From contig NC_037596.1 of NCBI RefSeq assembly GCF_003073045.1, positions 7,583,416 through 7,647,415 of the forward strand: a DNA stretch of 64,000 nucleotides. The letters are read 5' to 3'. Below are positions 19,041 to 58,252 of the stretch, in pieces (the stretch's first letter is position 1; every line of letters begins with the position of its first letter). The notes beneath the pieces are model-generated. The model ran no database searches. It saw nothing but the letters and a program-made list of their open reading frames with translations, and was not told the DNA's origin. The stretch comes from Pomacea canaliculata. Its lineage: Eukaryota; Mollusca; Gastropoda; Architaenioglossa; Ampullariidae. The translations under genes were made by a program, and so were the position numbers.

Positions 19041-20730
19041 GTGAGGAGCGGATGTCAATATTGCCGACAGCGAAGGGTGGACAGTACTTCACCGACTAGC
19101 CATGTTCGTTATGTTCTCGACTGAAAAGAGATTAAAATAATGCAGTTTATTAAAATCGTGTTGTGAGAAAAGTGAACATTTCAATATAGCCGAGTGGTGG
19201 GGTTTATGGAGTGGCGACAACAAACGCCCAACACTCAAATAAAAGCAGGATACCGTCAGCAGGTGCACGGCCTAGAAACAATGGCCACGACTGAGAAGCA
19301 CGTCTGTCTTCCTTCTCTAAACCACTGTCGTCTGCTCTCTTCTTTTTTTTTTTACGTCATCCGTTTGTCGTCACCTCCCTAGTTGCTGGCACGGCATAAA
19401 ACACCAACAACAACATTGTCGTCACCTTTCTGTCGTCACCTTATTTTGACGTCACACCTTATGTCATTTGCTCACGGAACTTCCCAAACGACATCCGGAC
19501 CTCTACATAAACAGGACTGGTGGTCCGAAAATTAAAATGGCTTTACGATTGGCCGTGGAGAGTAACAAATGGAGTAGATTCTGGTATCTGATAAACATAG
19601 GAGTACAAGAAGACTTGAGTGACGATGAAAAACGTCTAGCTCTTCAAAATGTGCATCGTATAACAAAAAAATGTGATTTTACTAATAATCTGACAGTTTT
19701 CATTAAGTATTTGGTAGAACAAAGCTCACATTTATTTCCAGACAGAGAAGGTCCCTCACCAGTTCTGCCTGTGTTGAAAACCTGTATGAGGTTTTCCAAA
19801 TGGTCGTTGGCGGAAGAACTACTTCAACGTATTTCTGAGAGTGATACAAGAGACTTAATTGATGACAAGATGTTGATGTGCAAAATGGTGAGCCGATACA
19901 AAAAGGAAGATCACGTGATCTGGGTGTCATATCTGGATGCGTTACTGGAGCGAGGTATGGACATTAACAGCCGAAATTGTTACGGCGAAACCATATTGGC
20001 GGACATAAATGTTATAAAGAGTCTTGTGGACAACACACCAGTCTCACTGGTAAAGGTTTTGCTCCAACGAGGAGCCGATCCGTTACTTGTGGACAACGAT
20101 GGAGCTTCATTGTTTGTGTATGCTATGGCATATTCCTTCCTTTCCAAGTTAAATGTAGTTCTTTCCCTTCTGGAGCTAGGACTGGTCTCCCGTCAGAACA
20201 ACCTTGATGGGGACGATTCAACCATACTGACAAGACTGGCAGTTAAAAGCAAAATCATTCCTCTTTTGAAAATCCTTATTGAATGCGACGTCAGCTGTAA
20301 CTCCGAGCTCCGAGCCCTCAAAGCCGAGTATCAGATGAAAAAAGCACAAGAGGCCGATAGAAACCAACCCTCAGATCGCCTCGAACAAATCTGCTCGATC
20401 CTGGAGCAGGCAGCCACTGAGCCCCGATCTCTGCAGTCTCTCTGTCGGGTCGCTGTGTGTCGCTGTATTCCATGGGGACTGAGCAGACGAGATATGGTTC
20501 TCTCCCTTCCGATTTCCAACGTGCTACACGAATATCTGCTGTTTGTTTACGATATCTCTGATCCTGATGTACAGGCGGCTCTTAACGAACAGACCAGATC
20601 TAATGATGATGATGATTATTATTATCCTGATGATGATGATGATTATGATGATGATGGTGATGAGGAGGAGTACGACGACGATAGTAGTGGTGAGGACGAT
20701 TTCTTCAGACAGAATGGTTTACAAGCTTGA
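19041..20730 (+). pseudogene. Detached 3' fragment of an ankyrin-SOCS-box (ASB-like) gene
   Basis: Homology begins at 19041 in mid-ankyrin repeat (ADVNIADSEGWTVLHRLAM). A TAA at 19138-19140 interrupts the frame, and about 300 bases of foreign sequence follow (SINE-like end ggcacggcataaaacaccaa). Ankyrin homology resumes near 19500. From there to 20730 the frame is open, with a first usable ATG at 19537: ankyrin units, then the SOCS box (BC box SLQSLCRVAVCRC, Cul5-box-like LPISNVLHEYLLF, about 20425-20560) and an acidic Asp/Glu/Tyr tail. The closest relative is 34311-37181. It is the only ASB-like sequence on the plus strand and has no N-terminal part. The open 397-residue portion could still be expressed, but as a unit it looks like a transposed remnant. 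Confidence 0.75.
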
Positions 20731-24171: not shown

Positions 24172-24199
24172 AGATCAGGTCTGTTTCTCAGTGCTTTTT
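24172..24199. repeat. Target-site duplication, left, of LINE at 24200-24827
   Basis: agatcaggtctgtttctcag and the following tgcttttt are repeated at 24828-24855. The unoccupied version is at about 31552-31577. Confidence 0.85.
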
Positions 24200-24827: not shown

Positions 24828-25447
24828 AGATCAGGTCTGTTTCTCAGTGCTTTTTTGTACATGTGTGTGTATAATCGGCGGCACGGTGCGCACTTATCCG
24901 TGACTGTGACCCAAATATTGATTGGCTAATTAGTAGGTCATGGCTGGGAGTGAGGGGGGATAGGCAGGCTTGAGCTAGCTGGGATGGGAGTGTCTAGGGA
25001 AGGTGAGTCGGGTTTGAGTCAGACTGAAGGAAAAGAAACTAAATATTATGAAATAAATGCATTAAACTGAACAAAAAAATTATATGTACAAAGATGGAGC
25101 TTAAAAACCAATCTGACAGGGATTTTGTGAAAAATAAATCTGCTTATTTTCTTCGTTGTTAGTAATGGGTGTTTACATTGGGTGGGATATCAGATTCAGA
25201 AATTCCAGGCGGCTAAATATGGCGACAGGGTGGACTTGAAACTCGGCACCTTTTACATTCTTTGTTGTTGTGAGGACGGACGAATCAAGTTAAGACGTTA
25301 AGACAGAGAACATCGCAACAAGTGTACATGGCGACTTACGGAGTTTGAAAACCTAGATATTTCTCAAGGGTATGCAATACTTTGAACAATCAAGCTCATA
25401 GTGAGGTCTACCTATGAGAGTCTTGTTTTGATTTGTTTCTTTTCTTT

Positions 25448-28400
25448 TCATCTCGGGGATGGCACGTTCATGAAGCAAAGAACAGCAAAATGGTCAGACT
25501 TGAGACGGTCTGTCACGGAACAGGACTGAACTTTATTCTCATCAGGTCGGTGCAGCACCCAGTCGATGATATGATGTGACGTGTGTGTTGGGTGTTCGAC
25601 CGCCTGTTTAAATCCATACTTGGAAATTAGACTGCACATTGACCTGGAATGTGATCGTGTGTCATATTGAAAATTGAAGTCTCCAAGCAAGACAACCTTC
25701 CCAGGGATCTCTTTACACCAATCTAACAGTTTGGGAAATTCTTCAAAGAAAACTGCGTTCTTGTTTTTCTGGCTTCGTGGAGGTCTGTAGATGCAGAAAA
25801 AATGTACGAGTTCAGGATCCGTCAACGTGAACTGGATCACTTCAAAGCTGGTGATGGAGAAGGGCAAGGATTCGACGACCTGACATAAGATGTTTCGTCG
25901 ACAGAGGACAGCTACACCCCCACCTGTGGTTGGACGGGGACGGGATTCCATACAGTAGCCCTCAGGGGTCAGATCACCGTGTACTAACTCATCCCCTCTG
26001 ATCTTTAACCACGTCTCGTTCAGGAACATGATGTCAAGCTGCTTCTCTTTGATAAAGTTACTTATACGGCTAGACTTATTCCGAACAGAGCGAGCATTGA
26101 ACACACACACAAACAGGTTGTTGCCACGTGACGTCGATGTCCTCCTGACGGGTCTCTCCAAAGATTGGGTACGTCCTCCCATTGAAATGTTCCCACTGTC
26201 TAGTTTAGTGTTCTCGTGTAGGAGATCCCACACTTCTAAGTAGCTATCATTGTCTTTATTCTTTGCCTTGAGTAATCTATGCAAAGGTAACCTGTTCTTA
26301 TTATCAGGCATGTTGACATCAGCTCCACAGTCGACGAATAATTTGACATAATACCAATTATAGTCTTTTGCTAGGATGTTAAGGGGAGTATTCCCATTAC
26401 GATCGCGTAGGTTAATGAAGTTAAAGGTACGTTCAATATTCTGTATTATGTCGAAAATCCAGTCTTGGTCATCGGAGCGGATTGCCCAGTCTGCCAGGTA
26501 CTCGAACACATCTCGTCCCACCAGCGCTTCTGGCTCCAGGTGTATGTCATACCAACGAAGCTCACAAAGAATGTCCCATAGTTTTTTACAGAAAGCGAGT
26601 TGCATCACTGACTGGCCCTCTGAACTTCGATGATAGATAACATCTTCATTTTCCTCCAATATAAGGCGCATCAGCAGTAGGATAATGCTGATATTATCAG
26701 GAGTAATAGAATCCATAAGTCGGTGAAGAATTTGATCAAAACTGCAGAGCGCTTCGATGTCGGCACCTGCATTACACAGACATAATGTCACTGGCCAGTT
26801 ACTGGAGTTGACAGATAGTAGCAGTGGTGTCGTCGTGCCTGAAGTCTGGATGTCAGGACACGTCCTGTTGACGTCAGCACCTTTCTCCAACAGTCGCCTG
26901 GCGATGTCCTGACATCTGGGAGACGAGGTCTGAGCGACTCTCGACAACAAAGTGAAGCCCTCGCTGTCAGTCTCGTTGACATTGTCTTTAAACTTCAAGA
27001 GCCGCTCCACCATGTCCATGTTCCCGTGCTTCGCAGCCACTTGTATCGGCGTGTTGCCTTCTGGGTCATGGGCATGGACGTCAGCACCACATGAGATTAA
27101 CAGTTCCAGAATATTCTTTTGCATTTCCTGAGTTAACAAACTATGGCCATATTTCGGAGTTACAGAAGCCAGAACATGCAGGACAGACAACCCGTTACTA
27201 TCCAGTATGCAGGGGTCAGCACCTGTTTGTAGAAGTCGCTCTGTGATGTCCCAGTTGTTGTGTTTCGCTGATAACATCAGCGCTGTATTAACGCTGTCGT
27301 CACGAGCATCAATGACGATATGACTGTCGATAAAAAGCTCAGACCTGTCTAAATGAAGTTTCCAACCTCTGCACATTTCACAACCGAGATTTTGAGAATC
27401 TTGGCGCTGTGAAAGCATGTGCAGGGCAGTGCATCCTGATTGGTCTTTATCGTTAACACAAGCTCCACTGTCCAACAAAGCAGCTACCTTGTCCCAAAGT
27501 TCAAACTTAACAGCTAGATGGAGGGGAGTATGGCCATTGCGATCTCTCTGGTTAATCAACGCATCGTTTTTTAAGATATTTTTCAGAAGATTATCTGGAG
27601 AACTTTGAGAACACAATCCACATGGCAAGTCCGGCCGACTCAGATATCTGTGAAGAACTGTCATACCTTCGTTGTCGAGGATGTTGGCTCTAGTTTTGTA
27701 ACTTAAAAGGGCCTGGACAGCCAGCCAGTTGTTGCTTTTTGCCGCAAGATGTAGAGCAGAGTTACCATCTAGACACTTCTTATTGACGTCTGCCCCTTTT
27801 TTGACAAGTCGTTTGATTACAGCCACTGGTGATGATAGACAAGACTGACTTACTCTTTGAAGAACTGTGAACATATCAGAATCCACCATGTTGGCATCAT
27901 CTAAGTTGTTGAGCAGCATGTCCACGACATCTATATTCCCCGCAGCAGCCGCCCGATGGATAAGAAAGAAAACTTCATGTTTGTCGAGAGATGAAGACAT
28001 ATTCAAAACAGACAGGACCTTACGATGATTCTGACCTTTCTTAAACGCTTCTCCTCGGTTTGTAGCCATTCTGTGAAGAACGCTGCACCTCTCACTGTCT
28101 AACTCATTAACATTCCCTCCCTCGTGCCTCAAGATGTGTTCTACAATGTTCCACTTCTCATGCTTGGCTGCGAGTTGCAAAAGGGAGTCATCAGAAGGAT
28201 TTCGGACCCGACTTGAGAATCCCTTTTTATAAAGAAGACTAAAGAGGGGATATGTCTCATGGGTCTCATTTTTGTACTGAATTAGCTTTTGAATGATCCA
28301 AAAATCATCAGTGGCTAACCCTCGCTGAACTAAGTATTTGACCATGACCCAGTTTTCGTATCTGACCGCCAGGTGGAGCGCCGTGTTACCCTGTGAGCAG

Positions 28401-29965
28401 GGAAGAGACAGGTCAGCTCCTTTCTCGAGAAGAAGGTCAAGGATAGACAATACCTTTGTGTGATTAGTTTCTAACACAGGGTCAGATGCAAGGATGTGTA
28501 TAACTGTGAAACCATCTTCATTACGAGGCTTTATACAGGCTCCGAGGTGCAGTAAGCGTTTAAGTAACATCCAGTTCTTCTGCCTCGCGGCTAAATGCAC
28601 GATGGTGTTGCCACTGGGTCCAGCCGCATTTATATTTGCACCTCGGTATTGAAGAAGAGAAAAAAGAGGTATAACCTCTTCGACATGTTCGCTGTCAGCT
28701 AAAGCCAGTCTGTGTAAAACATTACTGTTGTCCTCATCACGAATGTCGTGATTTGCTCCATGTTCTATCAGCAGTTTACATAAAGTCCAGTTCTGAGAAT
28801 CAGCCGCCAGGTGAAGTGGCGAACGGCCATTCTCATCTCGTCTGTTCACTTGGGCTCCATGCTTGATACACTCAGTAGCAAGGGACTCACAGTAGAAGGA
28901 AGGTCGTTTCAGAGCAAGAATGTGCAGGACTGAGTGTTGATGACTGTCAAGAACATTAACATTTGCGCCATGTTTGAGCAAGAGTTTGAGGAAATGCCAG
29001 TTCTCGATTCTTGCAGCCAGAATGGCCGCTGTGTTCCCTTCACGATTTTTATCGTCCACGTTTCGGCAATCTTTAAAAAGTAGTTCTAATGCTTTGTTCT
29101 TGGATTCCGCATTCTTATTTCGATATTTATTCCTAGCTTTCAAATACTCACGCTCATCACTGTTGTGTGCAAGGCGTAGAATATATTGAACTTTGCGTAA
29201 CTTCTGATGGTCGGTGGCCAGGTGCAGAGCTGTGTCTCCGTTGGCGGTCTTAAGGTTAACATCGGCGCCATTTTCCAGAAGACGGGAAAGAAGAGAGTCG
29301 AACCTGCTGTCAGGACACATGATCAGTCTGTGTAGGACTGACAGACCATCCCTGTCGAGGAGGTTCAGGTCCGGCTTGGTGACGAGAAGGTCACAGACAC
29401 GTGACCACATGTTGACTTTCGCCTCCAGCTGCACCAAGATGTTGTGGACTGTCTTGTCTGTGCTGTCCAGAATCGTCTGCTTTGAATTTCTCCAGACTGC
29501 ACTGAGAACGTCTATATGGAGGTAACGTTTTTCCCTGAGAGTCTGACTATCGGCTATTGTCAGTATTACTGACCGAAGGCTGCGGTCATCTTCCAATAAA
29601 CCTTCTACTGACCACAGAAATACTATCAAGGTGTCCCAGTTGCCACACCTTGCCGCCTCAACGGCAGCATTTTTTGCTTGAACTTTGAGATTCTGACTGC
29701 TTTCCTTATTGGAAAATATCTGTTTTAATATGTCTTTCACAAGCTGATAACTAATTTTTCTAAGGGAAGCAAATTTCTGCAACAGGAAAGACTGCTGGAT
29801 AGCGACTACTACATTGTGCTCGTTAGACAAAAGTTCTCTGACCAGATTCCAGTTACCAGCCTCAGCAGCAGAGTTTAGCAGCTCCGAGGTCTCTGCAATT
29901 CTAGTCATGATGTCCGGGGGAACGTGGTCAGAACTCCATGTTGAATGTTGCTGTCCGTGAGACAT
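25448..29965 (-). CDS. Giant ankyrin-repeat protein with C-terminal EEP endonuclease domain
   Basis: A single open exon of 1505 codons. ATG at 29965 is the first in frame after the acceptor (TATCGCAG, AG at 30015-30014); 29908 is an alternative. An N-terminal LLNSAAEAGNWNLVRELL segment leads into about two dozen ankyrin units (for example GNTALHLAVRYENWVMVKYL, GADVNKKCLDGNSALHLAAK). They end near 26300 at the point where the relatives continue to a SOCS box. After a Ser/Arg-rich linker, about 225 residues (roughly 26130-25448) match the endonuclease/exonuclease/phosphatase fold of CR1/Jockey-type LINEs. The active-site elements are visible: FNARSVRN, LNETW, YRPP, GDFNFQYD and SDHFAVL. No reverse transcriptase follows; the stop comes shortly after SDH. 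The protein therefore lacks the ubiquitin-ligase adaptor end and has gained a possible nuclease. Confidence 0.88.
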   Translation of the reverse strand: MSHGQQHSTWSSDHVPPDIMTRIAETSELLNSAAEAGNWNLVRELLSNEHNVVVAIQQSFLLQKFASLRKISYQLVKDILKQIFSNKESSQNLKVQAKNAAVEAARCGNWDTLIVFLWSVEGLLEDDRSLRSVILTIADSQTLREKRYLHIDVLSAVWRNSKQTILDSTDKTVHNILVQLEAKVNMWSRVCDLLVTKPDLNLLDRDGLSVLHRLIMCPDSRFDSLLSRLLENGADVNLKTANGDTALHLATDHQKLRKVQYILRLAHNSDEREYLKARNKYRNKNAESKNKALELLFKDCRNVDDKNREGNTAAILAARIENWHFLKLLLKHGANVNVLDSHQHSVLHILALKRPSFYCESLATECIKHGAQVNRRDENGRSPLHLAADSQNWTLCKLLIEHGANHDIRDEDNSNVLHRLALADSEHVEEVIPLFSLLQYRGANINAAGPSGNTIVHLAARQKNWMLLKRLLHLGACIKPRNEDGFTVIHILASDPVLETNHTKVLSILDLLLEKGADLSLPCSQGNTALHLAVRYENWVMVKYLVQRGLATDDFWIIQKLIQYKNETHETYPLFSLLYKKGFSSRVRNPSDDSLLQLAAKHEKWNIVEHILRHEGGNVNELDSERCSVLHRMATNRGEAFKKGQNHRKVLSVLNMSSSLDKHEVFFLIHRAAAAGNIDVVDMLLNNLDDANMVDSDMFTVLQRVSQSCLSSPVAVIKRLVKKGADVNKKCLDGNSALHLAAKSNNWLAVQALLSYKTRANILDNEGMTVLHRYLSRPDLPCGLCSQSSPDNLLKNILKNDALINQRDRNGHTPLHLAVKFELWDKVAALLDSGACVNDKDQSGCTALHMLSQRQDSQNLGCEMCRGWKLHLDRSELFIDSHIVIDARDDSVNTALMLSAKHNNWDITERLLQTGADPCILDSNGLSVLHVLASVTPKYGHSLLTQEMQKNILELLISCGADVHAHDPEGNTPIQVAAKHGNMDMVERLLKFKDNVNETDSEGFTLLSRVAQTSSPRCQDIARRLLEKGADVNRTCPDIQTSGTTTPLLLSVNSSNWPVTLCLCNAGADIEALCSFDQILHRLMDSITPDNISIILLLMRLILEENEDVIYHRSSEGQSVMQLAFCKKLWDILCELRWYDIHLEPEALVGRDVFEYLADWAIRSDDQDWIFDIIQNIERTFNFINLRDRNGNTPLNILAKDYNWYYVKLFVDCGADVNMPDNKNRLPLHRLLKAKNKDNDSYLEVWDLLHENTKLDSGNISMGGRTQSLERPVRRTSTSRGNNLFVCVFNARSVRNKSSRISNFIKEKQLDIMFLNETWLKIRGDELVHGDLTPEGYCMESRPRPTTGGGVAVLCRRNILCQVVESLPFSITSFEVIQFTLTDPELVHFFCIYRPPRSQKNKNAVFFEEFPKLLDWCKEIPGKVVLLGDFNFQYDTRSHSRSMCSLISKYGFKQAVEHPTHTSHHIIDWVLHRPDENKVQSCSVTDRLKSDHFAVLCFMNVPSPR

Positions 29966-30013
29966 TCTCTGTCCTGTCCACCAGAATGTCCAGGTCACTC
30001 AGTTCCTTGAGGC

Positions 30014-34310: not shown

Positions 34311-37181
34311 TTAGTCGTCCTCGTCGTCGTCATCGTCCTCATCATAATCATCATTGTCATCATCAGTGTGCAGGATCTGTGTGGCCTCCTCGTTAAGTCC
34401 TGCCTGTACATCAGGATGAGAGATATCATCAGCAAACAGCAGATAGTTTTGCACCACTTTGGGAATGAGGAGGGACTGAACCATGTCTCGTCTGCTCAGT
34501 CCCCACGGTATACAGCGACATACAGCGACCCGACAGAGAGACTGCAGAGATCGGGGCTGAGTGGCTGCCTTCTCCAGAATCAAGCAGATTTGTTGTAGGC
34601 TTTGCGAGGGTTCGTTCCTCTCTGCGTCTTGGGCTTTTTTCAGCTGATACTCCGCGTTGAGGGCTCGGAGCTCGGAGTTACAGCTGACGTCGCATTCAAT
34701 CAGGATTTTCAGAGCAGGAATGTTTTTGGTTTCAACTGCCAGTCTTGTCGGTGAGGCTAAATCTTCATCGTCATCTTCATCTTCATCGTGATTCTGACGG
34801 GAGACCAGTCCTAGTTCCAAAAGGGAGATAACTGATGTTAACATATATTGGACAACATCATTGATAACATACACAAGCAAGGAGCATCCATTGCTGTTTA
34901 CATGTGTAGGGCTGATACCTCGCTGGAGCAAAACTCTGAAGAGTGAGTCCGGTGTGTTGTTGTCCACAATGCTCCGTATAACCGCGTCATCCGTCAACAC
35001 GGTTTGGCCGTAACTGTCTCGACTGTTGATGTCAACGCCTCGTTCAAGCAACGCATCCAGCAGAGAGACCCAGATCACGGAATCTTTCTTTTTATATCTC
35101 ATCACCATATCATGTATCAAAGTCCCCTCCGCGATCAAGTCGTTCATTTCCGTTTCAGAAGTACATTCAACTATGACTTTGGCCACGCGCCATTTACGAG
35201 ACCATAAACAGTTTTGTAAAGCATACACCACGGTTGAGTGACTTGCTATGTCGTGAACTAAAGTACGATTTGAGCTTTGTTCTATCAGACATCTTATGAA
35301 AACTGTCAGATTATCATTCAAAGCACACTTTTTTGGTAAACTATCCACATTTCTAAGAATCAGATGTTTTTCATTTTCGGTCCAGTCTTGTTGTGCTCCT
35401 AATTGTATCAGATACCAGAAAATAGTCCACGCATTTCTGTCCAGCGCCATCTGAACAGCAGTTCTACTGTTCTGACCGCCGGTCATGTTGATATCTGCAC
35501 CATTATCACAGCATAATTGTAATAAACTGGATGGCTTAACTCTCACTTCAGTCCAGTACACATCTAACATGGCTAGTCGGTGAAGTACTGTCCATCCTTC
35601 ATTGTCGGCCATGTTGACATCCGCTCCTCGCTCCACAAAGCGCTGTACCCACTCCCACTGATCATATTTTGCCAGGATGTTTAGCGGAGTGTCACCATCT
35701 CTGTCACGTGTGTTTATGTTCAGGTTACCGCTAGGCATGAGACGCAATGCAATCTCATCATCCTTATTCATTATGGCCCAGTCTGCAAAGCCATGAAAAA
35801 CAGATTCTCCCAGTAGAGGCTCAGGATCAGTGTATGCTCCATCTTCAAGTAGCTTTTCAACTGATCTCCACAGTCTTCCCGCGACCGCAAGCTGCAGTAA
35901 CGATCTGCCCTCTAAATGTACGTGTGCAAATTTATCAATTGTTTTCATTGAAAATAGCTGAAGCAAAAGTTCCTTTTGAATCGCACACTCATCTTGAAAG
36001 TAAATGTCTTGAATAAAACACTTTGCTATTGAGGAATGTGTTTCCATACGAGAAAGGCGCCAGGCGATGACCTCACATCTGGGAGACAAGCTCTGAGCGA
36101 CTCTCGACAACAAGGTGAAGCCCTCGCTGTCAGTCTCGTTGACGTTGTCGTGAAACTCCAAGAGCCGCTCCACCATGTCCATGTTCCCGTGCTTAGCAGC
36201 AACTTGTATCGGCGTGTTGCCTTCTGGGTCTCGCGCACTGACATCAAGATTCTGTAAGATCAGGTTTTTAAGAAGTTGGCAAAGCAAACCTTCGCTCCCC
36301 CGTCCATCGTTACTCCATTTTGCTTTCGCCAGAAGATGCAGAAGTGTTACGCCGTTGCAGCCCTTTACACAAGGATTTGCGTCTTTCAATAACAGCTTTT
36401 GGAAGATGTCCCAGTTGTTGTTTTCCGCCGACAACAAAAGAGCTGTGTTACCATAGGGATCACGAGCGTCGATAAAAACTCTTCCGTCGATGAAATCAAG
36501 GATGTCTAGATGACTGTAACGCATTTTCAAGAAGCTGCAGGTTTCCATCTCATCTTTAGGGCAAGGCTGCATCTGGGCAAGTCTGTGCAATGCTGTGTAT
36601 CCCTCTGAATCTCGTTCACCGAGCGACGCACCTCTGGTTAACAACCCTACTGCCAAGTGCCACTGTTTATAGGTGACAGCCAGATGCAGAAAAGTGTTGC
36701 CATGGAGATCTTTTTGATTAGTCAACACATTTTGGGTAAAAATAAATAGTAAGACGGCGAGACTTTCTTCGGTTAAGATGTTCTTTGGCGATTTTGAATA
36801 CAGGTGCAGCTGATGAATAAGTCGATGTAAGACAGACATCCCTTCGTTGTCAAGGGAATCTGTTCTCGCTCCAGACTGTGCTAAGTGTAGGACACCCAGC
36901 CAGTTACCACTCTTAGCCGCCAACTGAAGTGCTGTATCCCCACCTGGACATCTCTTGTCTATATCTGCTCCTTTAATGAGAAGACCTCGAATGACAGCCA
37001 CTGACGATGACGAACAGCACTGGGACACTTTGTGTAGAAGTGTGAAACCGTTACAGTCTGTGATGTTGACATCATCAAAGCTGTTGAGCAGTACATCTAC
37101 AACATCGATATTTCCAGCAGCAGCAGCCCGATGGATGAAGAATACGGTTTGATATTCGTCAACAGCTTCAGATTTCCCCAC
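34311..37181 (-). CDS. Giant ankyrin-SOCS-box (ASB-like) protein, C-terminal part after a frameshift
   Basis: This frame continues the gene that starts at 39193. Homology to the paralogues runs through the junction, so together they form one coding region broken by a single frameshift near 37200. It encodes ankyrin units (AAAAGNIDVVDVLLNSFDDV onward), including the highly conserved GNTPIQVAAKHGNMDMVERL block. A SOCS box follows near the end (about 34400-34560): BC box SLQSLCRVAVCRC, then LLIPKVVQNYLLF in place of the Cul5-box consensus LPxP. The last 25 residues are almost all Asp/Glu. In characterised ASB proteins the BC box binds Elongin B/C and the ankyrin stack holds the substrate; here this is inferred. 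The length after the break is 956 residues. Confidence 0.88.
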   Translation of the reverse strand: MGKSEAVDEYQTVFFIHRAAAAGNIDVVDVLLNSFDDVNITDCNGFTLLHKVSQCCSSSSVAVIRGLLIKGADIDKRCPGGDTALQLAAKSGNWLGVLHLAQSGARTDSLDNEGMSVLHRLIHQLHLYSKSPKNILTEESLAVLLFIFTQNVLTNQKDLHGNTFLHLAVTYKQWHLAVGLLTRGASLGERDSEGYTALHRLAQMQPCPKDEMETCSFLKMRYSHLDILDFIDGRVFIDARDPYGNTALLLSAENNNWDIFQKLLLKDANPCVKGCNGVTLLHLLAKAKWSNDGRGSEGLLCQLLKNLILQNLDVSARDPEGNTPIQVAAKHGNMDMVERLLEFHDNVNETDSEGFTLLSRVAQSLSPRCEVIAWRLSRMETHSSIAKCFIQDIYFQDECAIQKELLLQLFSMKTIDKFAHVHLEGRSLLQLAVAGRLWRSVEKLLEDGAYTDPEPLLGESVFHGFADWAIMNKDDEIALRLMPSGNLNINTRDRDGDTPLNILAKYDQWEWVQRFVERGADVNMADNEGWTVLHRLAMLDVYWTEVRVKPSSLLQLCCDNGADINMTGGQNSRTAVQMALDRNAWTIFWYLIQLGAQQDWTENEKHLILRNVDSLPKKCALNDNLTVFIRCLIEQSSNRTLVHDIASHSTVVYALQNCLWSRKWRVAKVIVECTSETEMNDLIAEGTLIHDMVMRYKKKDSVIWVSLLDALLERGVDINSRDSYGQTVLTDDAVIRSIVDNNTPDSLFRVLLQRGISPTHVNSNGCSLLVYVINDVVQYMLTSVISLLELGLVSRQNHDEDEDDDEDLASPTRLAVETKNIPALKILIECDVSCNSELRALNAEYQLKKAQDAERNEPSQSLQQICLILEKAATQPRSLQSLCRVAVCRCIPWGLSRRDMVQSLLIPKVVQNYLLFADDISHPDVQAGLNEEATQILHTDDDNDDYDEDDDDDEDD

Positions 37182-39193
37182 AATAGACCTGACATAAGAG
37201 CACCGAATCCTTCCTTGAATGTTCTCCCTTTGCTGACGGTCATTCTGTGGAGGACGCTGAAGCCCTCGCTGTCCAGCTCGTCCACATTTCCCCCCTGGTG
37301 ACTCAGAATGTGGTCAACAAACGTCCACTTCTCGTGTCGGGCAGCAAGGTGAAGAACCGAATCGTTAGATAAAGTCTGCACGCTGCTTAAAGAACCTTTT
37401 TCATAAAGAAGACGAAAAAGCAGAAGACCGTTCGAGGTCTCAGTTCTGCTCTGAATGAGTCGTTGAACTACATGCAAACCCTTGCTGTCCATCGCATTCA
37501 AGTTTGCTCCCCTTTCTATCAAGTAGCTGACCATGATCCAGTTTTCCCGTTTGGCCGCCAGATGGAGCGCCGTGTCCCCTTTCGAACAGCGTATCTCGAT
37601 GTCAGCTCCTTTTTCGATGAGAAGATCGACGATAGATAATAACTCTGTTTGGTCGTTCTCGATTGATTCATTGGTTACATTTTGCTCGCCTTTCCGAGTA
37701 CAAGTAGTCGTCATGGCAACGATGTGTAAAACATTGAAGCCGTCTTTATTATAAAGATTTATGCTGGCCCCGAGATGCACAAGGTGTCTGACGAGTGTCC
37801 AGTTCTGCTGACTCGCAGCCATGTGTAACACTGTGTAACCCGCTCGACACAAAGTATCTAGGTAGGAATATCTCAAGCACAACAGTGAAAACAATAAACA
37901 TATGTTTTCTGTGTTTTCTCCTTCAGTTAGGGCCAGTCTGTGGAAAACGTTGTAGCCTTCACTATCTACATGTCCAGGTTCTGCTCCACAATCTATCAGC
38001 AATTCAAACAGAATCCAGTGTCTGGACTGCACAGTTAGGTGAAGCACTGAATTCCCGTACACATCTCGGCTGTTCACCTCAGCCCCTCTACTCAAACACA
38101 GAGCAACAAGGTTTCTACACGCCAAGGCATCTGTAAAAGTTTGTTTGGTAGCAAGTATATGCAGCACTGATCTTTGATACAAGTCAACAATATCAGCACG
38201 GGCTCCATGTTCCAGAAGTAGTTTCATAAACTCCCAGTTGTCGGTTTTTGCAGCCACAATCATCGCCGTGTTCCCTAAGTCATCTTGATCGTCTAAATTC
38301 TGACAAGAACTAATCAGCTTTGCTAGTAACTGACGCTTGGACTCAGCACATTGACTGCGATATTCTTCCAAAATCTTGGTCTTAGCCTGCTCTCGTTTAT
38401 CCTGGTCTTTGCTGTCTGGCAAGTGTAAAGGCGGAAGTGACGTAGTGATCTTTTGATGTTTTGCAGTCAGATGTAAGATTGTGTCTCCCTTTTTGGTCTT
38501 GATGTGGACGTCGGCGCCATTTTCCAGAACAACCGGAAGAAGAGAGTCGAACCTGCTGTCAGGACACATGACGAGTCTGTGTAGGACTGACAGACCTTCC
38601 CTGTCGAGGAGGTTCAGATCCGGTTTGGTGACGAGAAGGTCACAGACACGTGACCACATGTTGAGTTCCGCCGCCATCTGTACCAAGGTGTTTTGAACAC
38701 CATTGTCTTTGCTGTCGATAATCTTCTGATTTGCATGTTTCCACAGTGCACTAAAAACGTCCATATGTAGGAAAGGATTTGCCTGAAGCATCTGACTTGA
38801 AGCCATCAGACGTACTACTGACAGCAGGGAGGTCTCATCATCAAACAAGGATTCAGTCGTCAGGAGAAAATCAATCAGGAATTCCCAGTTGTCACAGTGA
38901 GCCGCTTTTATTAAAACGTCTTGGGCGATGCTTTTCATTGTCCGAACACTTGCTTCGCTTGAAAATATTTCCTTGAGAATGTCTCTGACAAGATGATGAT
39001 CAACAGTCGCAGACTCCAGTTTCTGTAAGAGAAAAGACTGTCTGATGCCGCTGGGTGAGACGTCAGCATCGGAGATGACATCTCTGACCAGATGCCAGTT
39101 ACCGGCCTCAGAAGCTGAGTTCAGCAGCACCGCGCCTTCTGGAAGACTGGAGTCGTGTGGATCATCGTGCTGAACCTGTGTTAAGTTGTCCAT
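37097..39193 (-). CDS. Giant ankyrin-SOCS-box (ASB-like) protein, N-terminal part before a frameshift
   Basis: ATG at 39193 (MDNLTQV) is chosen: the longer frame to 39220 begins with GTG, and the ATG matches the copy at 288. The acceptor TTGCAG lies about 55 bases upstream. An N-terminal LLNSASEAGNWHLVRDVISD region is followed by about a dozen ankyrin units (LLDREGLSVLHRLVMCPDSR, GDTALHLAAKRENWIMVSYL, GNVDELDSEGFSVLHRM). After FKEGFG the frame leaves the homologous path and stops at 37097. The homologous path resumes in the next frame (34311-37181). Either the gene is inactivated or the sequence has a one-base error here. Confidence 0.87.
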   Translation of the reverse strand: MDNLTQVQHDDPHDSSLPEGAVLLNSASEAGNWHLVRDVISDADVSPSGIRQSFLLQKLESATVDHHLVRDILKEIFSSEASVRTMKSIAQDVLIKAAHCDNWEFLIDFLLTTESLFDDETSLLSVVRLMASSQMLQANPFLHMDVFSALWKHANQKIIDSKDNGVQNTLVQMAAELNMWSRVCDLLVTKPDLNLLDREGLSVLHRLVMCPDSRFDSLLPVVLENGADVHIKTKKGDTILHLTAKHQKITTSLPPLHLPDSKDQDKREQAKTKILEEYRSQCAESKRQLLAKLISSCQNLDDQDDLGNTAMIVAAKTDNWEFMKLLLEHGARADIVDLYQRSVLHILATKQTFTDALACRNLVALCLSRGAEVNSRDVYGNSVLHLTVQSRHWILFELLIDCGAEPGHVDSEGYNVFHRLALTEGENTENICLLFSLLCLRYSYLDTLCRAGYTVLHMAASQQNWTLVRHLVHLGASINLYNKDGFNVLHIVAMTTTCTRKGEQNVTNESIENDQTELLSIVDLLIEKGADIEIRCSKGDTALHLAAKRENWIMVSYLIERGANLNAMDSKGLHVVQRLIQSRTETSNGLLLFRLLYEKGSLSSVQTLSNDSVLHLAARHEKWTFVDHILSHQGGNVDELDSEGFSVLHRMTVSKGRTFKEGFGALMSGLLWGNLKLLTNIKPYSSSIGLLLLEISML

Positions 39194-41545
39194 CACGTGA
39201 TCTCTTCGTCCACAAATCACGTCTCGATCTGTCGTCTGGAGGAGGCCTGCAATGAAAAAAGTAATAATAATGAGTATTTTTAACTCTAAAAAACTTGTAA
39301 TATGTTAATATTTTTTCATTTTAAGTAATGGGTATTTCGACTTTAAGGATAGAATACGAAGATAAAGAACAAAGAAAACTGATAAATAAAATTAGGTAAA
39401 TTCTCAGGAATCCTTACATGATTGTATTAACGATTCCTTTCGTACGTTAACGATATGGCATTAAAATCACACTGTTTCTCGGGAAAAACCTGATTTTTTC
39501 TTTCTGCTCAGGTAAACTCTTTACAGAGTCTTATGTCACATCGTCTGATGTGAGATAGTCAACATTCTACATCTCTTGCAAGTTATATACCGCGTTGGTT
39601 ATAATGTCTACAATCGTTGCCTGATGTAAAAATTAACATCATAAAAGAAAACTGAAAAATTAAAGCTTTTGAATTCAGTAGAGTGATTGCTTTCGTTTGT
39701 TCTTTTGAAAGGATGAGGAGGTATTGTTTTACAGGCAGCTCTTGTCACTAACCATTCCACCATTGTGACATATTACACAAGTTTGTTAGTTGATAGTGTC
39801 ACAGTGTTTGTTACCTGTGTTACTCTAGAGACAGAGAGTCTGCAACATAGAGTGGGAGAGACGGAGAGAGAATTTTAAACATGGAATGAGAGAGAGAAAC
39901 ATAGAGGGGGAGAGAGTGAGACAGAGTTAGTAACATTCAGTAGGAATGGAGAGAAGAATGGAGCAGCGGAGTATAAGACAGAGACAGAGTTAGCAGCAAA
40001 GAGTGCAAGAGAACGAAACAAAAATATTAAGTGGTAGAGAGAGAGACTTGACAACACAAAGGAGAGATACAGAGTTAGCAACATTAAGTGATAGAAGGAT
40101 CAAGACAGAGAGTAACATAGAATAAGAAGAGACAGAGTTAGTAACAGAGTGGGAGAGAGAGACAAAGCTAGCAACATGTAGTGAGAGAGACAGCAACATT
40201 GAGAGAGAGAGAGTGCTTGGCGGTTTATCTTTGCAAACACGCGTGGAGTCATGGAACAAACAGGTGTCAGGAATATAAAAGACAATCCTCATACACTATA
40301 ATGACTTATCAACAGGTGTATTTGTCCCGCCAAGCGATTACACCTGTTCACTCAAGCTAGTCAGGTGGGAATTACCAGATGAGTGGAAATCCTCACGAGT
40401 TTCCATTTCATTGTTGTCGCCATTTGAAATGTCACGAACTTTACATGAAACATTTACTCTTCGGTGTTCTCGGAATACCACGGAAATAAGTATTACTACT
40501 ACTATTACCACATAGGTTTTATTACTAACCTTTCATCACCCTCGATGATACATAGTTGGCGAGTGTGTTAAAAATGATGGCGGCATGATGGAGTGTGCTT
40601 GGCGGCTGAGTCACTCACAATCGAAAAACTTCCGCGTTTGAAGTAAGAAAAACAAGTAAATGATTACCATCTTACCAATAAAAAAGTTTTCACAAACTTG
40701 AGGTGACTGGAAACATAGATATAGAATATGTTTGTAAGACGTGGGCTTTCTCAGGCATCTTACCTCAATAATCAGAGCAGGTGAACTGTGTAAACTAGAC
40801 AGGTGACAAGAAGTTCTAAGCAATTCTTTTTAAACGGAGATTCCCTTTCTGGTCATAATATTGTCTTGTTCAACCTGTTACTCATCAAGAGGTCAGTTTG
40901 AAAATCAGTTGACATGAATGTATGTGTAAAGCAAACATTACATGTGCATTCCACATGTTTCTTTACGGTATAAGCCACAGGGTTCAGATCCCGTTTGTCG
41001 AAATGAAGTATTTGGAGACATAACTCTCTTGTTTGTCATGTCTAAATTCTCTTCCTTTAAATGTATGCAGACTGCACTCTCCATGAATATGATTTTCCTT
41101 GAGCATCTGACCTTTATTCACAACTTCTATTACTGAGAAAATGTTTTCTTATCTTCACAAAATAACAAAAAGATATCTCAACTCCTACAATTGGCTGCTT
41201 CAACCTTAGAACTCCATGCTTTATCTTTTAATGATTGAGCGCTTGCTTCGTCTGAAAATAGTTTTCAAGATATTTTTGACAAGCTATGACTAATCAGTTT
41301 CTGATTAATTCAACCCAAAATCGAAAATATTTATTCAAATTAATTGAAGGCAGTATGTTATGTTTGGAAGATGACCCTTATTACGGGGCATGTTTATTTA
41401 TTTATTTTGCGATTTTGGTAAGTGATACATTGTTCATTATATAGTCGTAATACATATCGACTTCTTTAAGGATATATTTACATAAATCCTAATAAAATAT
41501 GCATATATATATATATTGTATTTATATGATAGACAACACAACACG
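38907..41545. repeat. Segmental duplication D1, copy 2
   Basis: Partner of 1-2473. An extra stretch of about 170 bases near 39285-39490 is not in copy 1. No gene was seen between 39247 and 41545 apart from leader exons inferred from donors. Confidence 0.85.
39828..40215. repeat. GAGA-rich degenerate minisatellite, second copy
   Basis: Matches 748-1140 almost unit for unit. Confidence 0.75.
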
Positions 41546-53169: not shown

Positions 53170-56100
53170 TTATTCCCAGTCATCATATGAGTCTGAATTG
53201 TAGTAATACCCAGGTGGTACATCGTCATCTGAAGAAAAATAGAGATCACTGAAGCGTGACGCCCACACATTTCTCCGCTCCTCCCCTTCCCTGCTCACAG
53301 CTTGAGACAAGACCTCAGGGAACATCAGATAGTCTTTGAGCACAGGGGGAATGGGGAGGGACATCACCATGTCTTTTCTGTTCAGGCTGTACGGTAAGCA
53401 ACGAGACACCGTGAGACGACACAGGGATTCCAGAGATCTGGGCTGAGTGGTCGCCTCATCGAGAACTTGAGACATTTGTTGTACCTGTGGATTAGTGACT
53501 ATAACCACCGCATTTTCATTGTGGTATTCAGTATTGAGAGAGAACAGTTCTGAGTAGGGACTGGTGCCGCATTCAATCAGGATCTTTAGAACAGAAATAT
53601 TTCCTTTCTTGATCGCTTTTTTCATTGGCGACATTAACGACAAGCATGGTTGCTGCAAACCAAGCCGAGGCAGGTGAAAAATCACTCCAAGCTGGATGAG
53701 GGAGGTAAGTATGCTTGATGTATCACCAAAGTCCAAAGCATTAAAAAGAAAACTATTTCCCATGTTGTCAACTAACAGAGGATTGCACCCCTTTTCTAGA
53801 AGTGTTTTAAACAATACACCTACGGTCTCATTCGACTCAACGAGGCTGTGTATGACATTTCTTTTCATCAATATTGTTTTCCCTTTGCTGTTGCGACAGT
53901 TGATGTCAAGTCCACGAGAAAGCAGGTCATCTAGAAGGGATATCCATATGCGGTGGTCTTCCTTGCGGTAGAGAGAAGCCATGGTGTGAAGTAATTGCGT
54001 TTTGCCATCCAGCAGCCTTTTGATGTTAACATCAGCACCGCATTCAAGCAATATCTTGGCAGTTGCCCACTTGGAAAACAGTATGCATCTTTCAAAGGAC
54101 CGCTGTACAACGCAAAAGCAATTGCTAGTTTCAGTATACATTGGTTTTGAGCAGTCTTTTATCAGGATCCTTGCAACTGGAGTAAGTTTTTCTTCCTGAA
54201 TGTGTCTTGTTGGAAGGCGAAATATGTTTTCAAGGATCAAGTGTTCATCACATCTACCCCAGTCTAATTTAGCTCCTAGCTGTACCAGGTGCCAAAAAAT
54301 AGGCCAGTGCTTTTCCTCTAGTGCTATCATTATAGGTGTCTTTCCATTTGGTCCAGTTACGTTTATGTCTGAACCCTTTTCAGCGAGAGCAGCCAAAAAC
54401 AGAGAAGGACAGACTTCAGATCCATACCATTCATCTGCCATTGCTAGTCTATGAAATAATGTCCAACCATCACTGTCAGGCAAACTGACATCCGCTCCAT
54501 GCTCAAGAAGCAGTTTAACACACTCCCACCGCCTGAACCTTGACAAAGCGTTCAAAGGAGTGTCTCCATCATCGTTGCGTAAATTAATATTCAATATTTG
54601 TGTCGGCATCATATTTGAAATAAAGTCTACGTCAATTAATTCTTCTGGTTCCAAGCAGAGCACACACTCGACTAAGCCATGGAATACGGATTCTCCCAGC
54701 AAAGGCTCTGGGTCGGTTTCTGCTCCATATTCAAGAAAATTTGGAATAGCTGTCCAGCATGTCTCCTTGAATGCAAGTTGTATAGCCGACATTCCATTCT
54801 CACTTTTCCGAGTGATTATGTCATCTTCGCGTAGTATAATGCAACGTAACAGATCTTCATTATCTTCATCATCATTGCAGCTTTCAAGAAGATGATGTAG
54901 AACTAGAGGATCCTGCTTAGAAATATTACTTATATTTCTCCTAGAAAAAAAACACACCGACGATAAAAAGCTCCAGTTCCTGGACGTAACTGACAGTGTT
55001 ATCGGTGTCTTGCCATCAGAACATGTTATGTTGACGTCCGCGCCTTTCTCTAGCAGACGTATGGCGATGTGCTCACATCTGGGAGACGAGGTGTGAGCGA
55101 CTCTCGACAACAAGGTGAAGCCCTCGCTGTCAGTCTCGTTGACGTTGTGTTGAAACTCCAAGAGCCGCTCCACCATGTCCATGTTCCCGTGCTTCGCAGC
55201 CACTTGTATCGGCGTGTTGCCTTCTGGGTCACGTGCCCTGACGACAACTCCATAGGTGATGATACGTTCTAAAATGTCCTTTCGTATGTCCTTGCTCAAG
55301 ATGTTCTCGGACGAAGAATTAACAGAAGCTAAAATGTGCAACAAAGTCAAACCGTCTTTATTTAATAAGTCAGGCTTCGCACCCTGGATTAGAAGCTGTT
55401 GTGTGACATCCCAGTTGTTGTGATTCGCCGATAACATCAGCGCGGTATTACCCTGAGGATCGAGAGCATCAATCAGCTTTTTGTGGGCGACGAAAAGGCC
55501 ACACATGTCAAGATGATTAAAGTTCTTTTTCATAAGGTCAGAAGAGAAAAAATTAAATGTTCCTTCTTGATCATCGCCTATGCTGCAAGTCACACAGGTC
55601 TCTCTAGACATTGTTCTGTCGACATCGCTATTTATAGTCTGCACTTGTGATGCTAAGCTCACAGGACTGTTCACATCCTCTTGATGACGACTGGCAAGAA
55701 CGTGCATGATAGTATGTCCTTTCAAGTCTCTTTCCACCAACAAGGCTCCTCTAGCCAACAGTTCTATTGCCATGTCCCAGTGTTCATGCTTGACTGCTAG
55801 ATGAAGTGGGGTGTTGCCATTGGGATCTCTCTGATTACTCAAGGCACCTCTATACAACAGGAGAACCAGTAGAGCGACAGGCTTTTTAACAACAGGGCCT
55901 TGTCTGCACTGGTTACATCTTATATTCGGTTGCTGTAGAAGTCTGTGTAGAACTGAGTAGCCTTCACTGTCAAGAGCAGTCGCACTAGCGCCGCACTGCA
56001 GGAGTTGGTGGACAGCCAGCCAATTGTTGCTCTTAGCTGCGAGATGAACAGCGGTGTTGCCATTAGGACAAGGCCTTTCTAAATAGGCTCCTCTTTCCAC

Positions 56101-57666
56101 AAGACATCTTATTATAGCAACAGTGTTTGGGACAATGAACTGGGTTACTCTGTGCAACAGTGTAAATCCCTCCCAATCTGTCATGTTAACGTCACTGAAA
56201 ATATTCAAGAGCAGATATAAAACCTCGACAGTATGTGCTCTGTCAGCCATCTGGACAAGAAATCTTAGTTCATAATTTCTCAAGATGTCCGATGTAACCA
56301 AAGCATGCATAACATACGAGGACAGCCATCCTGGAAATGTTTTGCCGAGGGTAATGGCTATTCTTTGAAGAAGAGTGAAGCCCTCGCTGTCTCTCTCGTT
56401 CTGATCGCCTCCCTTGTGTCTCAGAATGTGATCAGCGACGGTCCATTTCTCGTGTTTGGCGGCAAGTTGCAGAACTGAATCACCATGGCGACTCCGTGCA
56501 TTTGTGACTGCAGAATGTTGAAGAAGGAAAATGGATTGTTCCTCGGTGCACTCCGTGCTGCTCTGAATAAATCTTTCCATAAAGGTGACTCCTTCGCTGT
56601 CAACCTCGTGGATCATGGCTCCTCGCCGAAGCAAGTGTTTGACCACTGTCCAGTTGTGATGTCTCGCTGCCAGTTGGAGCGCCGTGTCGCCACTAGAACA
56701 ACGAATCTCTCGGTCCGCTCCCTTCTGTAGAAGGAGATCAATGACAGATAACACATCGGACCCCGTAGCTTTGCCGGTTGACTGATTTTGAGTTACTGCA
56801 AGAAGATGTAGAACTGCGTAGCCCTCACTGCTAAGATCGTGTATACTAGCGCCAAGATGGATGAGACATTTGACGAGGGCCACATTGTTAGAAACTGAAG
56901 CCAGGTGCAAAACAGTGTTACCTGCAGAGCATTGAGCATTCAGATCTGCACCTTGTTGATGTAGAAAATGAAAAAGCTGGCAGACGTTTTCTGCCTGTTC
57001 GCTTGAGGTCATGGCCAGTCTGTGTAACACGTTATAACCATCAGCATCTGTAAGCCTCGTGTCTGCTCCGAGATCTGCTAGAATTCGAAACAAAGTCCAC
57101 TTGTTAGAACACGCAGCAAGGTGCATGGCCGTGCATCCGTCAGCATCTCTAGCGTTGATTATAGCCCCACTGCTGACACACAATGTGACAAGAGTTTTAT
57201 ATGTCACGGGATCCATGGAGGATCCTGTCAGAACAAGAACATGCAGCAAGGATCTCTGACACTCGCCCACAACATCAGCACGTGCGCCATGTTCCAGCAG
57301 CAGTTTGAAGAATTCCCAGTTCCTGTTCTTTGCGGCCAGAATCGCAGCCGTGTTTCCTTTACTGTCACAGTCATCTAGTGTTTTAGCAGATGTAAGCAGC
57401 AATGTCAGCGCCTGGAGTTTAGCTTCTGCCCGTTTGGTGTGATATTCATTCATTATCTTTGATTTTATGTCTGTGCACTCCATCTTGTCGTTTCTGTCAC
57501 GCACAGTATTTTGATGTGTAGCAGCTAGGTGCAGTGTTGTATCTCCCTTACAGGTCTTGAGGGTAACATCGGCGCCATTTTCCAGAAGAACTGGAAGAAG
57601 AGAGTCGAACCTGCTGTCAGGACACATGACGAGCCTGTGTGTAGGACTGAGAGACATCTCTGTCAA
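53170..57666 (-). CDS. Giant ankyrin-SOCS-box (ASB-like) protein, main part after a frameshift
   Basis: 1498 codons open. The homologous frame is entered at HRLVMCPDSRFDSLLPVLLE, just after a frameshift that separates it from 57617-58252. About two dozen ankyrin units follow, including GNTPIQVAAKHGNMDMVERL. The SOCS box is near 53290-53450: BC box SLESLCRLTVSRC, then LPIPPVLKDYLMF, which fits the Cul5-box consensus LPxP exactly, the best match in the window. The C-terminus is Ser/Asp/Tyr-rich with only a weakly acidic tail and no trinucleotide repeat. By family knowledge it would recruit Elongin B/C and Cullin 5; the substrate is unknown. Confidence 0.9.
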   Translation of the reverse strand: MTEMSLSPTHRLVMCPDSRFDSLLPVLLENGADVTLKTCKGDTTLHLAATHQNTVRDRNDKMECTDIKSKIMNEYHTKRAEAKLQALTLLLTSAKTLDDCDSKGNTAAILAAKNRNWEFFKLLLEHGARADVVGECQRSLLHVLVLTGSSMDPVTYKTLVTLCVSSGAIINARDADGCTAMHLAACSNKWTLFRILADLGADTRLTDADGYNVLHRLAMTSSEQAENVCQLFHFLHQQGADLNAQCSAGNTVLHLASVSNNVALVKCLIHLGASIHDLSSEGYAVLHLLAVTQNQSTGKATGSDVLSVIDLLLQKGADREIRCSSGDTALQLAARHHNWTVVKHLLRRGAMIHEVDSEGVTFMERFIQSSTECTEEQSIFLLQHSAVTNARSRHGDSVLQLAAKHEKWTVADHILRHKGGDQNERDSEGFTLLQRIAITLGKTFPGWLSSYVMHALVTSDILRNYELRFLVQMADRAHTVEVLYLLLNIFSDVNMTDWEGFTLLHRVTQFIVPNTVAIIRCLVERGAYLERPCPNGNTAVHLAAKSNNWLAVHQLLQCGASATALDSEGYSVLHRLLQQPNIRCNQCRQGPVVKKPVALLVLLLYRGALSNQRDPNGNTPLHLAVKHEHWDMAIELLARGALLVERDLKGHTIMHVLASRHQEDVNSPVSLASQVQTINSDVDRTMSRETCVTCSIGDDQEGTFNFFSSDLMKKNFNHLDMCGLFVAHKKLIDALDPQGNTALMLSANHNNWDVTQQLLIQGAKPDLLNKDGLTLLHILASVNSSSENILSKDIRKDILERIITYGVVVRARDPEGNTPIQVAAKHGNMDMVERLLEFQHNVNETDSEGFTLLSRVAHTSSPRCEHIAIRLLEKGADVNITCSDGKTPITLSVTSRNWSFLSSVCFFSRRNISNISKQDPLVLHHLLESCNDDEDNEDLLRCIILREDDIITRKSENGMSAIQLAFKETCWTAIPNFLEYGAETDPEPLLGESVFHGLVECVLCLEPEELIDVDFISNMMPTQILNINLRNDDGDTPLNALSRFRRWECVKLLLEHGADVSLPDSDGWTLFHRLAMADEWYGSEVCPSLFLAALAEKGSDINVTGPNGKTPIMIALEEKHWPIFWHLVQLGAKLDWGRCDEHLILENIFRLPTRHIQEEKLTPVARILIKDCSKPMYTETSNCFCVVQRSFERCILFSKWATAKILLECGADVNIKRLLDGKTQLLHTMASLYRKEDHRIWISLLDDLLSRGLDINCRNSKGKTILMKRNVIHSLVESNETVGVLFKTLLEKGCNPLLVDNMGNSFLFNALDFGDTSSILTSLIQLGVIFHLPRLGLQQPCLSLMSPMKKAIKKGNISVLKILIECGTSPYSELFSLNTEYHNENAVVIVTNPQVQQMSQVLDEATTQPRSLESLCRLTVSRCLPYSLNRKDMVMSLPIPPVLKDYLMFPEVLSQAVSREGEERRNVWASRFSDLYFSSDDDVPPGYYYNSDSYDDWE

Positions 57667-58252
57667 GGAGGTTCAGATCCAGTTTAGAAACTAGAAGGTC
57701 ACAGACACGTGACCACATGTTGAGTTCTGCTGCCAGCTGTACTAAGGTATTCTGGACTCGTTTATCTCTACATTCGACAATCTTTTGTTTTGAATTTATC
57801 CACAACGCTCTTAAAACGTCCATATGTAAGTATTTTTGTGTTCTGAGTGTCTGACTAGCGGCCATTGCTTGTACTATAAATAGCACGTTGTTCTCATTCT
57901 CCAGTACAGTTTTTATCTCCGATAGAAAAACTATCAGCATCTCCCAGCTATCATTCTTTGCAGCATCAACTATTACACCTTCAGCGATATGTTTCAATGG
58001 CTGGGAATCTGCTTCATCTTCAAATAATTTTCTCAGTATATTTCTAACAATCAGAAGACTAATGCACTTCGCAGACGCCAGTTTCTGTAGTAACAAAGAA
58101 TTCTTGGCATCACTAGCATTGTTGTCACCGTTTGACAGAAGGTCCTTTACTAACTCCCAGTTTCCAGCCTCGACTGTTGAATTCAGCAACACTGTGCTTT
58201 CCGGAAGTATATCATCATCGGCCTTTTGAACTCCTTGTGATGAGAGTTCCAT
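57617..58252 (-). CDS. Giant ankyrin-SOCS-box (ASB-like) protein, N-terminal part before a frameshift
   Basis: ATG at 58252 (MELSSQG) is the first in frame; the longer open frame starts with TTG. A probable acceptor (CTCTTTTCAG) lies about 75 bases upstream, and leader exons are suggested by minus-strand donors near 58580 and 59490. It encodes the family N-terminus (LLNSTVEAGNWELVKDLLSN) as far as DLNLLDRD, then leaves the homologous path and stops at 57617. Against the paralogue the local change is one base lost and two gained (an extra AC in ACACAC), a net shift of one. Together with 53170-57666 the gene would encode about 1690 residues. Confidence 0.87.
   Translation of the reverse strand: MELSSQGVQKADDDILPESTVLLNSTVEAGNWELVKDLLSNGDNNASDAKNSLLLQKLASAKCISLLIVRNILRKLFEDEADSQPLKHIAEGVIVDAAKNDSWEMLIVFLSEIKTVLENENNVLFIVQAMAASQTLRTQKYLHMDVLRALWINSKQKIVECRDKRVQNTLVQLAAELNMWSRVCDLLVSKLDLNLLDRDVSQSYTQARHVS

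Follow-up and report, generated by a model that had tools for sequence, protein, structure and literature searches.

A 64,000-nucleotide stretch of sequence C7 in the 440-Mb Pomacea canaliculata assembly (C7:7583416-7647415, hereafter the window; positions without a prefix are counted from its first letter) carries a gene in which a giant ankyrin-repeat protein runs, inside one open frame, into an endonuclease/exonuclease/phosphatase (EEP) domain of the type found in long interspersed nuclear elements (LINEs). This gene, E5, belongs to a set of five duplicated copies (E1 to E5) that share a common junction, among which the frame has been kept up, the EEP is constrained at positions conserved in LINEs and the SOCS box typical of the related genes is absent. 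We consider it probable that these copies represent a domesticated LINE endonuclease that is maintained as a gene subfamily. Domestication of a retrotransposon nuclease had been suggested by an earlier note made from the letters of the window, and this idea gained support from the five duplicated copies, the frame kept between E2 and E5, the avoidance of LINE-conserved columns, a confidently predicted EEP fold and the lack of any close full-length LINE relative among the genome matches listed.

An ankyrin-endonuclease fusion present in five copies

E5 lies on the minus strand of the window, which is free of N, as a single open frame of 1516 amino acids from stop to stop (25448..29998, 1516 codons plus stop), and the same 1516-codon frame was also returned by a whole-genome search. 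Of the extent given by the earlier note, 25448..29965, the end at 25448 stood, but the frame reaches 29998, position 29965 being its first methionine (Met12). The ankyrin repeat stack (26273..29965, minus strand) is homologous to SOCS-box paralogues as far as residue 1242 or so, near which similarity ceases, so that a stack of more than 1200 residues was correctly recognized. It is followed on the same strand by a junction or linker (26132..26272, about residues 1243-1289), by the LINE-type EEP domain (25451..26131), identified by profile, fold, motifs and LINE homology, and by the stop codon and a brief stretch in which LINE homology may continue (25397..25450), where an alignment to the LINE protein P0001 reaches 25397 through stops. 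Similarity to the second open reading frame (ORF2) of LINEs starts between residues 1268 and 1299 according to the relative considered, and it includes the whole EEP domain. Pfam detected both ankyrin repeats (E 7e-81) and Exo_endo_phos (residues 1300-1503, E 1.3e-16), confirming the in-frame fusion. No SOCS box was found by Pfam in the E5 protein, in agreement with the proposed loss of its ubiquitin-ligase end, while the two paralogues scanned alongside have SOCS_box at E values of about 1e-8; E5 is in this respect unlike an ankyrin-SOCS (ANK-SOCS) Cullin5 adaptor of the ASB type. Neither does it resemble an autonomous LINE ORF2, in that a stop stands directly past the EEP in E1, E2, E3 and E5 and no reverse transcriptase follows, as the earlier note had stated. 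When ten LINE proteins and two reverse-transcriptase parts served as tblastn queries, no reverse-transcriptase sequence in the window was matched significantly. Rfam returned no match within the window either. One patch of E5 at about 26900-27100 (residues 967-1031) shows low divergence from several paralogues, with a proportion of synonymous differences (pS) of 0.19 against 0.73-0.84 in adjacent blocks, as might be left after gene conversion.

The fused EEP carries, on the minus strand, an N (26098-26096), an E (26017-26015), a Y (25789-25787), a D-x-N (25681-25679 and 25675-25673), a D (25564-25562) and the D-H of an SDH motif (25495-25490), positions that we take to be catalytic by analogy with LINE-1 EN and APE1. 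The N, E, D/N and SDH motifs had been noted before; Y and D are present as well, and all six motifs are retained in the four full-length fused EEPs (E1, E2, E3 and E5). Conservation was scored on a LINE EEP alignment of 40 of the 63 EEP-bearing proteins, namely those with at least 190 aligned residues, and E5 was changed at none of the 27 strongly conserved columns. Its EEP has the sequence profile of a LINE APE-type endonuclease, and structure prediction followed by a fold search also gave a confident EEP fold; a sequence search of the PDB with the fused EEP gave no match. A search of 5.8 billion proteins gave nine length-suitable matches, which were 26-52% identical over the EEP and all carry a reverse transcriptase domain. 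The LINE ORF2 proteins P0001, P0002 and P0003 have EEPs 40-52% identical to that of E5, with the same motifs, P0001 being the most alike (52%). A tree placed the fused EEP, at a weak support of about 50, beside P0001 and P0012, whereas, of three non-fusion genomic EEPs taken from the listed genome-search matches, one joined P0002 (support 95) and two paired together elsewhere in the tree (100). The nearest LINEs presumably resemble the L2/CR1 group rather than RTE.

Examination of C7:7448001-7747415 (299,415 bases, with a sole N run at 7719487-7719586) by tblastn revealed five EEP copies within 101 kb, each following the same ankyrin part: E1 (C7:7517122-7512583, minus strand), E2 (C7:7547161-7551705, plus), E3 (C7:7556111-7560603, plus), E4 (C7:7575537-7571493, minus) and E5 (C7:7613413-7608866, minus). 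For the ankyrin matches, this survey covered those longer than 120 residues and more than 45% identical. The earlier statement that all relatives end in a SOCS box therefore holds for the four other C-termini in the window, but not outside it, where four more copies carry EEP sequence. A whole-genome protein search with the fused EEP, in which 150 of 295 candidates were scored, found the same five copies at 90-100%; among the matches listed, the best-scoring EEP outside E1-E5 was 42% identical over residues 18-235 and contained three stops. A search for the EEP family based on PF14529 (150 of 338 candidates scored) listed E3 and E5, E1, E2 and E4 not being on the list, and four loci chosen from that list had no significant match to the fused EEP. 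Since no close long LINE match was listed, and given the placement in the tree, the source LINE lineage appears to have left no long recognizable copy, which suggests that the fused EEP outlived its source. Reverse-transcriptase relics of related LINEs lie on C7 at about 7505186-7505849, 7529898-7530133 and 7742686-7743435, none of them less than 6 kb from a fusion EEP.

E1, E2, E4 and E5 each form a duplicated unit with a neighbouring SOCS-box sister gene; long blocks of these units align at about 89-97%, and E3 alone has no such sister beside it. From about 25 bases beyond the stop, the 3' flanks are of one type in E3 and E5 and of another in E1 and E2. The junction text is nearly identical across the copies, so that it probably had one origin, and its being common to them places the fusion before the duplications.

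Selection on the fusion copies

E2 and E5 are open across 1516 codons and differ from each other by two 3-bp indels, without any frameshift. With E5 as the reference, four deletions in E3 are in frame and a fifth removes one base of a G run; E1 differs by three in-frame indels and by deletions of 13 bp and of 1 bp, the latter in an A run; and E4 has many lesions, its EEP being lost from about codon 147 on. The single-base frameshifts in E1 and E3 could be assembly errors. In part of the E3 flank (about C7:7565074-7566115), small gaps are unusually frequent in alignments with two other units (32 and 44 gap openings), perhaps a sign of poor polishing.

At 225 of 4509 coding sites E2 and E5 differ, a divergence for which about 7.7 stops would be expected if the change were neutral, and none was observed. 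In the noncoding flanks of the units, there were 149 gap openings per 666 mismatches, or 73 per 567 without two blocks (of 32 and 44 openings); with either ratio, tens of indels would be expected between E2 and E5, against the two in-frame ones observed, and the four full EEPs contain no indel at all. The placement of changes within these four EEPs is non-random: the 36 nonsynonymously variable codons have a mean LINE conservation of 0.297 versus 0.446 (P 0.0001), and only four of them fall on columns with a conservation of at least 0.6, compared to 62 of 229 overall (P 0.012). The synonymously variable codons (n=11) showed no avoidance of LINE-conserved columns (mean 0.468). Neutral simulations with three transition/CpG settings never reached the observed mean conservation (0 of 4000 each), and under them the number of changes on conserved columns had a P of 0.005-0.019. 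This avoidance persisted when only six close LINEs were used (P 0.00015) and in the comparison of E2 with E5 alone (P 0.0099).

A number of observations nevertheless weigh against selective maintenance. The absence of stops is by itself compatible with neutrality for the EEP (P 0.07-0.11), and codons changed in E2 alone (4, P 0.43) or in E5 alone (6, P 0.10) did not significantly avoid conserved columns. The ratio of nonsynonymous to synonymous rates (dN/dS), which the earlier note had put forward as a check on the EEP part, was overall not below 1: it amounted to 1.00-1.08, with no departure from 1 (profile about 0.55-1.9), and twice the log-likelihood difference (2dlnL) of 0.34 in an earlier rate run was an effect of a coarse kappa grid, the likelihood profile having its maximum at 1. 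For the ankyrin part, dN/dS was 0.81 (2dlnL 3.17; E1, E2, E3, E5) or 0.74 (2dlnL 4.08; E1, E2, E5), E4 being excluded from the four-copy rates, and the ankyrin part of the sister genes was more constrained, at 0.56 (2dlnL 14.5; S1, S2, S4, without S3, in which only 286 codons were mapped); the C-terminus of the sisters had a dN/dS of 0.84, not significantly below 1. Furthermore, E4 is a pseudogene, E1 carries its 13-bp and 1-bp deletions and E3 its 1-bp deletion. Protein searches yielded no ANK-EEP protein, although the species is in the database: none of the 120 listed out of 643 matches has an EEP domain, and the nine matches to the EEP query, all with reverse transcriptase, include no such fusion. 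The EEP of E5 has a branch length of 0.72 versus 0.19 for the two nearest LINEs, as expected of a fast-evolving captured domain and likewise of relaxed constraint, and it differs at 8 of the 59 columns that do not vary among six close relatives, and at 4 of the 37 columns conserved at 80%. Lastly, short EEP relics in the genome (45-52% over 44-112 residues) could be remains of the source lineage.

In our reading, a core of the EEP is conserved and the remainder changes fast. Simple relaxation would by itself leave the preservation of the frame and the placement of the changes unexplained, and positive selection may possibly be part of the fast change.

Proposed origin and alternative explanations

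The fusion would have arisen in an ancestor of P. canaliculata, when the 5' portion of an ORF2 from a LINE, including the whole EEP and no reverse transcriptase, came to continue the reading frame of the ankyrin stack in one ANK-SOCS gene, replacing that gene's last repeats and its SOCS box. Since the EEP is present and is immediately followed by a stop, the LINE piece would be a part of ORF2 trimmed at both ends, and the simplest route would be that a LINE inserted and a later deletion removed both the reverse transcriptase and the former end of the gene. The chimera would then have been retained and duplicated into five copies, mostly together with its SOCS-box neighbour. If the fusion protein is produced, its ankyrin stack may still bind the kind of partner that the sisters, putative Cullin5-type adaptors judging by their SOCS box, bring to the ligase, and the EEP may act on nucleic acid at that partner, by a nick, an exonuclease activity or a repair-like cut, in place of ligase recruitment. 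Rapid change around a constrained core is in keeping with a recognition protein engaged in an arms race, whose opponents might be mobile elements or viruses. The earlier note had offered a role as targeted nuclease or decoy, which we infer from sequence as a candidate role; in its stronger form, in which the products of E2 and E5 are active LINE endonucleases guided by their ankyrin stacks, and so ligase adaptors turned nuclease, the proposal is possible and on balance doubtful. If it were true, this would be a host effector family that evolution can re-aim, its binding surface diversifying while the cutting core of the retrotransposon is retained; its targets might be mobile elements or viruses.

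The same fusion might have been selected with the EEP as a folded, dominant-negative or scaffold tail that is no enzyme, acting as a decoy on the targets of the sisters without the ligase, its catalytic residues being kept by inertia over a short time. The missing SOCS box, the EEP dN/dS of about 1 and the long EEP branch all suit such a decoy, but the six motifs kept in four of four full-length EEPs and the avoidance of LINE-conserved columns, needless for a mere tail, make it an unlikely explanation. Slightly less likely again is a non-functional by-product of birth and death, in which a truncated ankyrin gene reads through a LINE fragment and was segmentally duplicated while decaying: a dead E4, frameshifted E1 and E3, dN/dS values of about 0.7-1.1 and the lack of a fusion protein in protein searches would be expected, but not E2 and E5 still open at 5% divergence, nor the non-random placement of EEP changes.

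Two structural explanations were also weighed. An inverted 3' fragment of an ankyrin gene lies at 19045..20730 (plus strand; SOCS C-terminus at 19450-20730), and it has the missing repeats, the SOCS box and part of the 3' flank of the sister gene, as if a simple inversion had moved the fusion gene's own 3' end there. However, the fragment is far closer in synonymous divergence (dS) to the SOCS sister (0.48) than E5 is (1.1-1.45), and it overlaps E5 at the junction; because of the dS values, it is unlikely to be E5's own lost 3' end, and we rejected this very improbable inversion as the cause of the break. A misjoin of LINE and ankyrin sequence during assembly could be imagined in a repetitive array with single-base frameshifts in homopolymers of E1 and E3, but the same kind of junction occurs in five diverged copies, at separate sites and in both orientations, in an array stretch with its sole N run at 7719487-7719586, so that an artefact is scarcely credible. 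A domesticated and maintained endonuclease is the reading that we prefer.

The surrounding array and comparison with known systems

The SOCS-box sister gene of E5's duplicated unit occupies 34311..39304 (minus strand) in two frames (34311-37313 and 37097-39304), and a more distant SOCS-box ankyrin paralogue occupies 53170..58282 (minus strand), again in two frames (53170-57672 and 57617-58282). Both are thus broken, and each may be either a young pseudogene or the product of an assembly error; the database protein for the first, LOC112568493, omits the break. Two stretches of this P. canaliculata protein match the neighbouring sister gene, at 99.7% and 100%, and the protein's N-terminal match of 87.5% over 688 columns extends past the point where the annotated protein skips sequence. 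By tblastn, SOCS boxes are found at four places in the window, which are the ends of the four C-termini other than that of E5. Among the sisters in the units, S1 is open, S2 and S4 have one frameshift each and S3 is broken; their ankyrin stack and N-terminus are homologous to those of the fusion copies in the same duplicated units. Over C7:7448001-7747415, tblastn matched SOCS boxes 16 times at 15 places; together with several more ankyrin genes, lying in both orientations, they make the array a fast birth-and-death cluster. A 153-bp direct repeat (92%) has one copy at 18888-19040, directly next to where the inverted SOCS fragment starts, and another at 21208-21360 in the 3' flank of that fragment, which suggests a rearrangement linked to repeats. 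In the 3' flank of E5, 24172-24855 is a separate insertion with perfect 28-bp terminal direct repeats and a TATTCG-repeat tail. The frame 24291-24830 inside it, which we take to be LINE-like and which had no Pfam match, was considered as the end of E5's LINE element and rejected, since it sits between direct repeats of its own (24172-24199 and 24828-24855).

The nearest precedent is p97Bcnt, the ruminant bucentaur paralogue. Its source was an RTE element, whereas the nearest LINEs of the snail EEP are presumably L2/CR1-like. In both systems an in-frame fusion of a host gene with a LINE EEP was duplicated, in the snail into five copies of which two are fully open; maintenance after the fusion is visible there in the E2-E5 frame and in the placement of changes, the EEP dN/dS not being below 1. 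According to two sources, p97Bcnt gained the endonuclease of an RTE element once its gene had been duplicated in tandem (PMC7284322; PMC4161310; Iwashita 2003, 2006, 2009, as titled in the reference list of PMC7284322); as in the snail, a tandemly duplicated host gene gained a LINE APE-like endonuclease and was duplicated further. The LINE part of p97Bcnt is described as an added coding exon (PMC4161310, in part), unlike the C-terminal replacement inside one open frame seen in the snail. The host gene and the phylum also differ, and the snail fusion lacks the ligase-docking SOCS box. It is apparently an independent recruitment of a LINE endonuclease.

Other systems are further away. The ASB-like ANK-SOCS sisters end in a SOCS box and an acidic tail where the fusion ends in an EEP, and LINE ORF2 proteins such as P0001-P0003 join their EEP to a reverse transcriptase, of which the fusion, tied to a host ankyrin protein, has no match. 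The mammalian L1TD1 is likewise a host gene made of LINE coding sequence, with positive selection reported, but it derives from LINE-1 ORF1, has no endonuclease and is not such a fusion (PMC4161310, in part). That 2014 paper gives L1TD1 as the single gene known to be made wholly from a non-LTR (long terminal repeat) element and cites the ruminant bucentaur exon. Helentrons also carry an EEP outside LINEs, but in a still-mobile element (PMC4067079, in part), and the nearest relatives of the snail EEP are LINE ORF2s with reverse transcriptase. No published ankyrin-EEP fusion was found among the titles and abstract openings listed, with subscription journals mostly outside their coverage. Few host genes that derive from the protein-coding sequence of LINEs have been published, and the snail case would be a mollusc example with catalytic motifs kept. 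Its SOCS-box sister in the same duplicated unit provides a control and its five natural copies range from intact to dead, an array that makes testable what a retrotransposon endonuclease does once linked to a protein-recognition scaffold.

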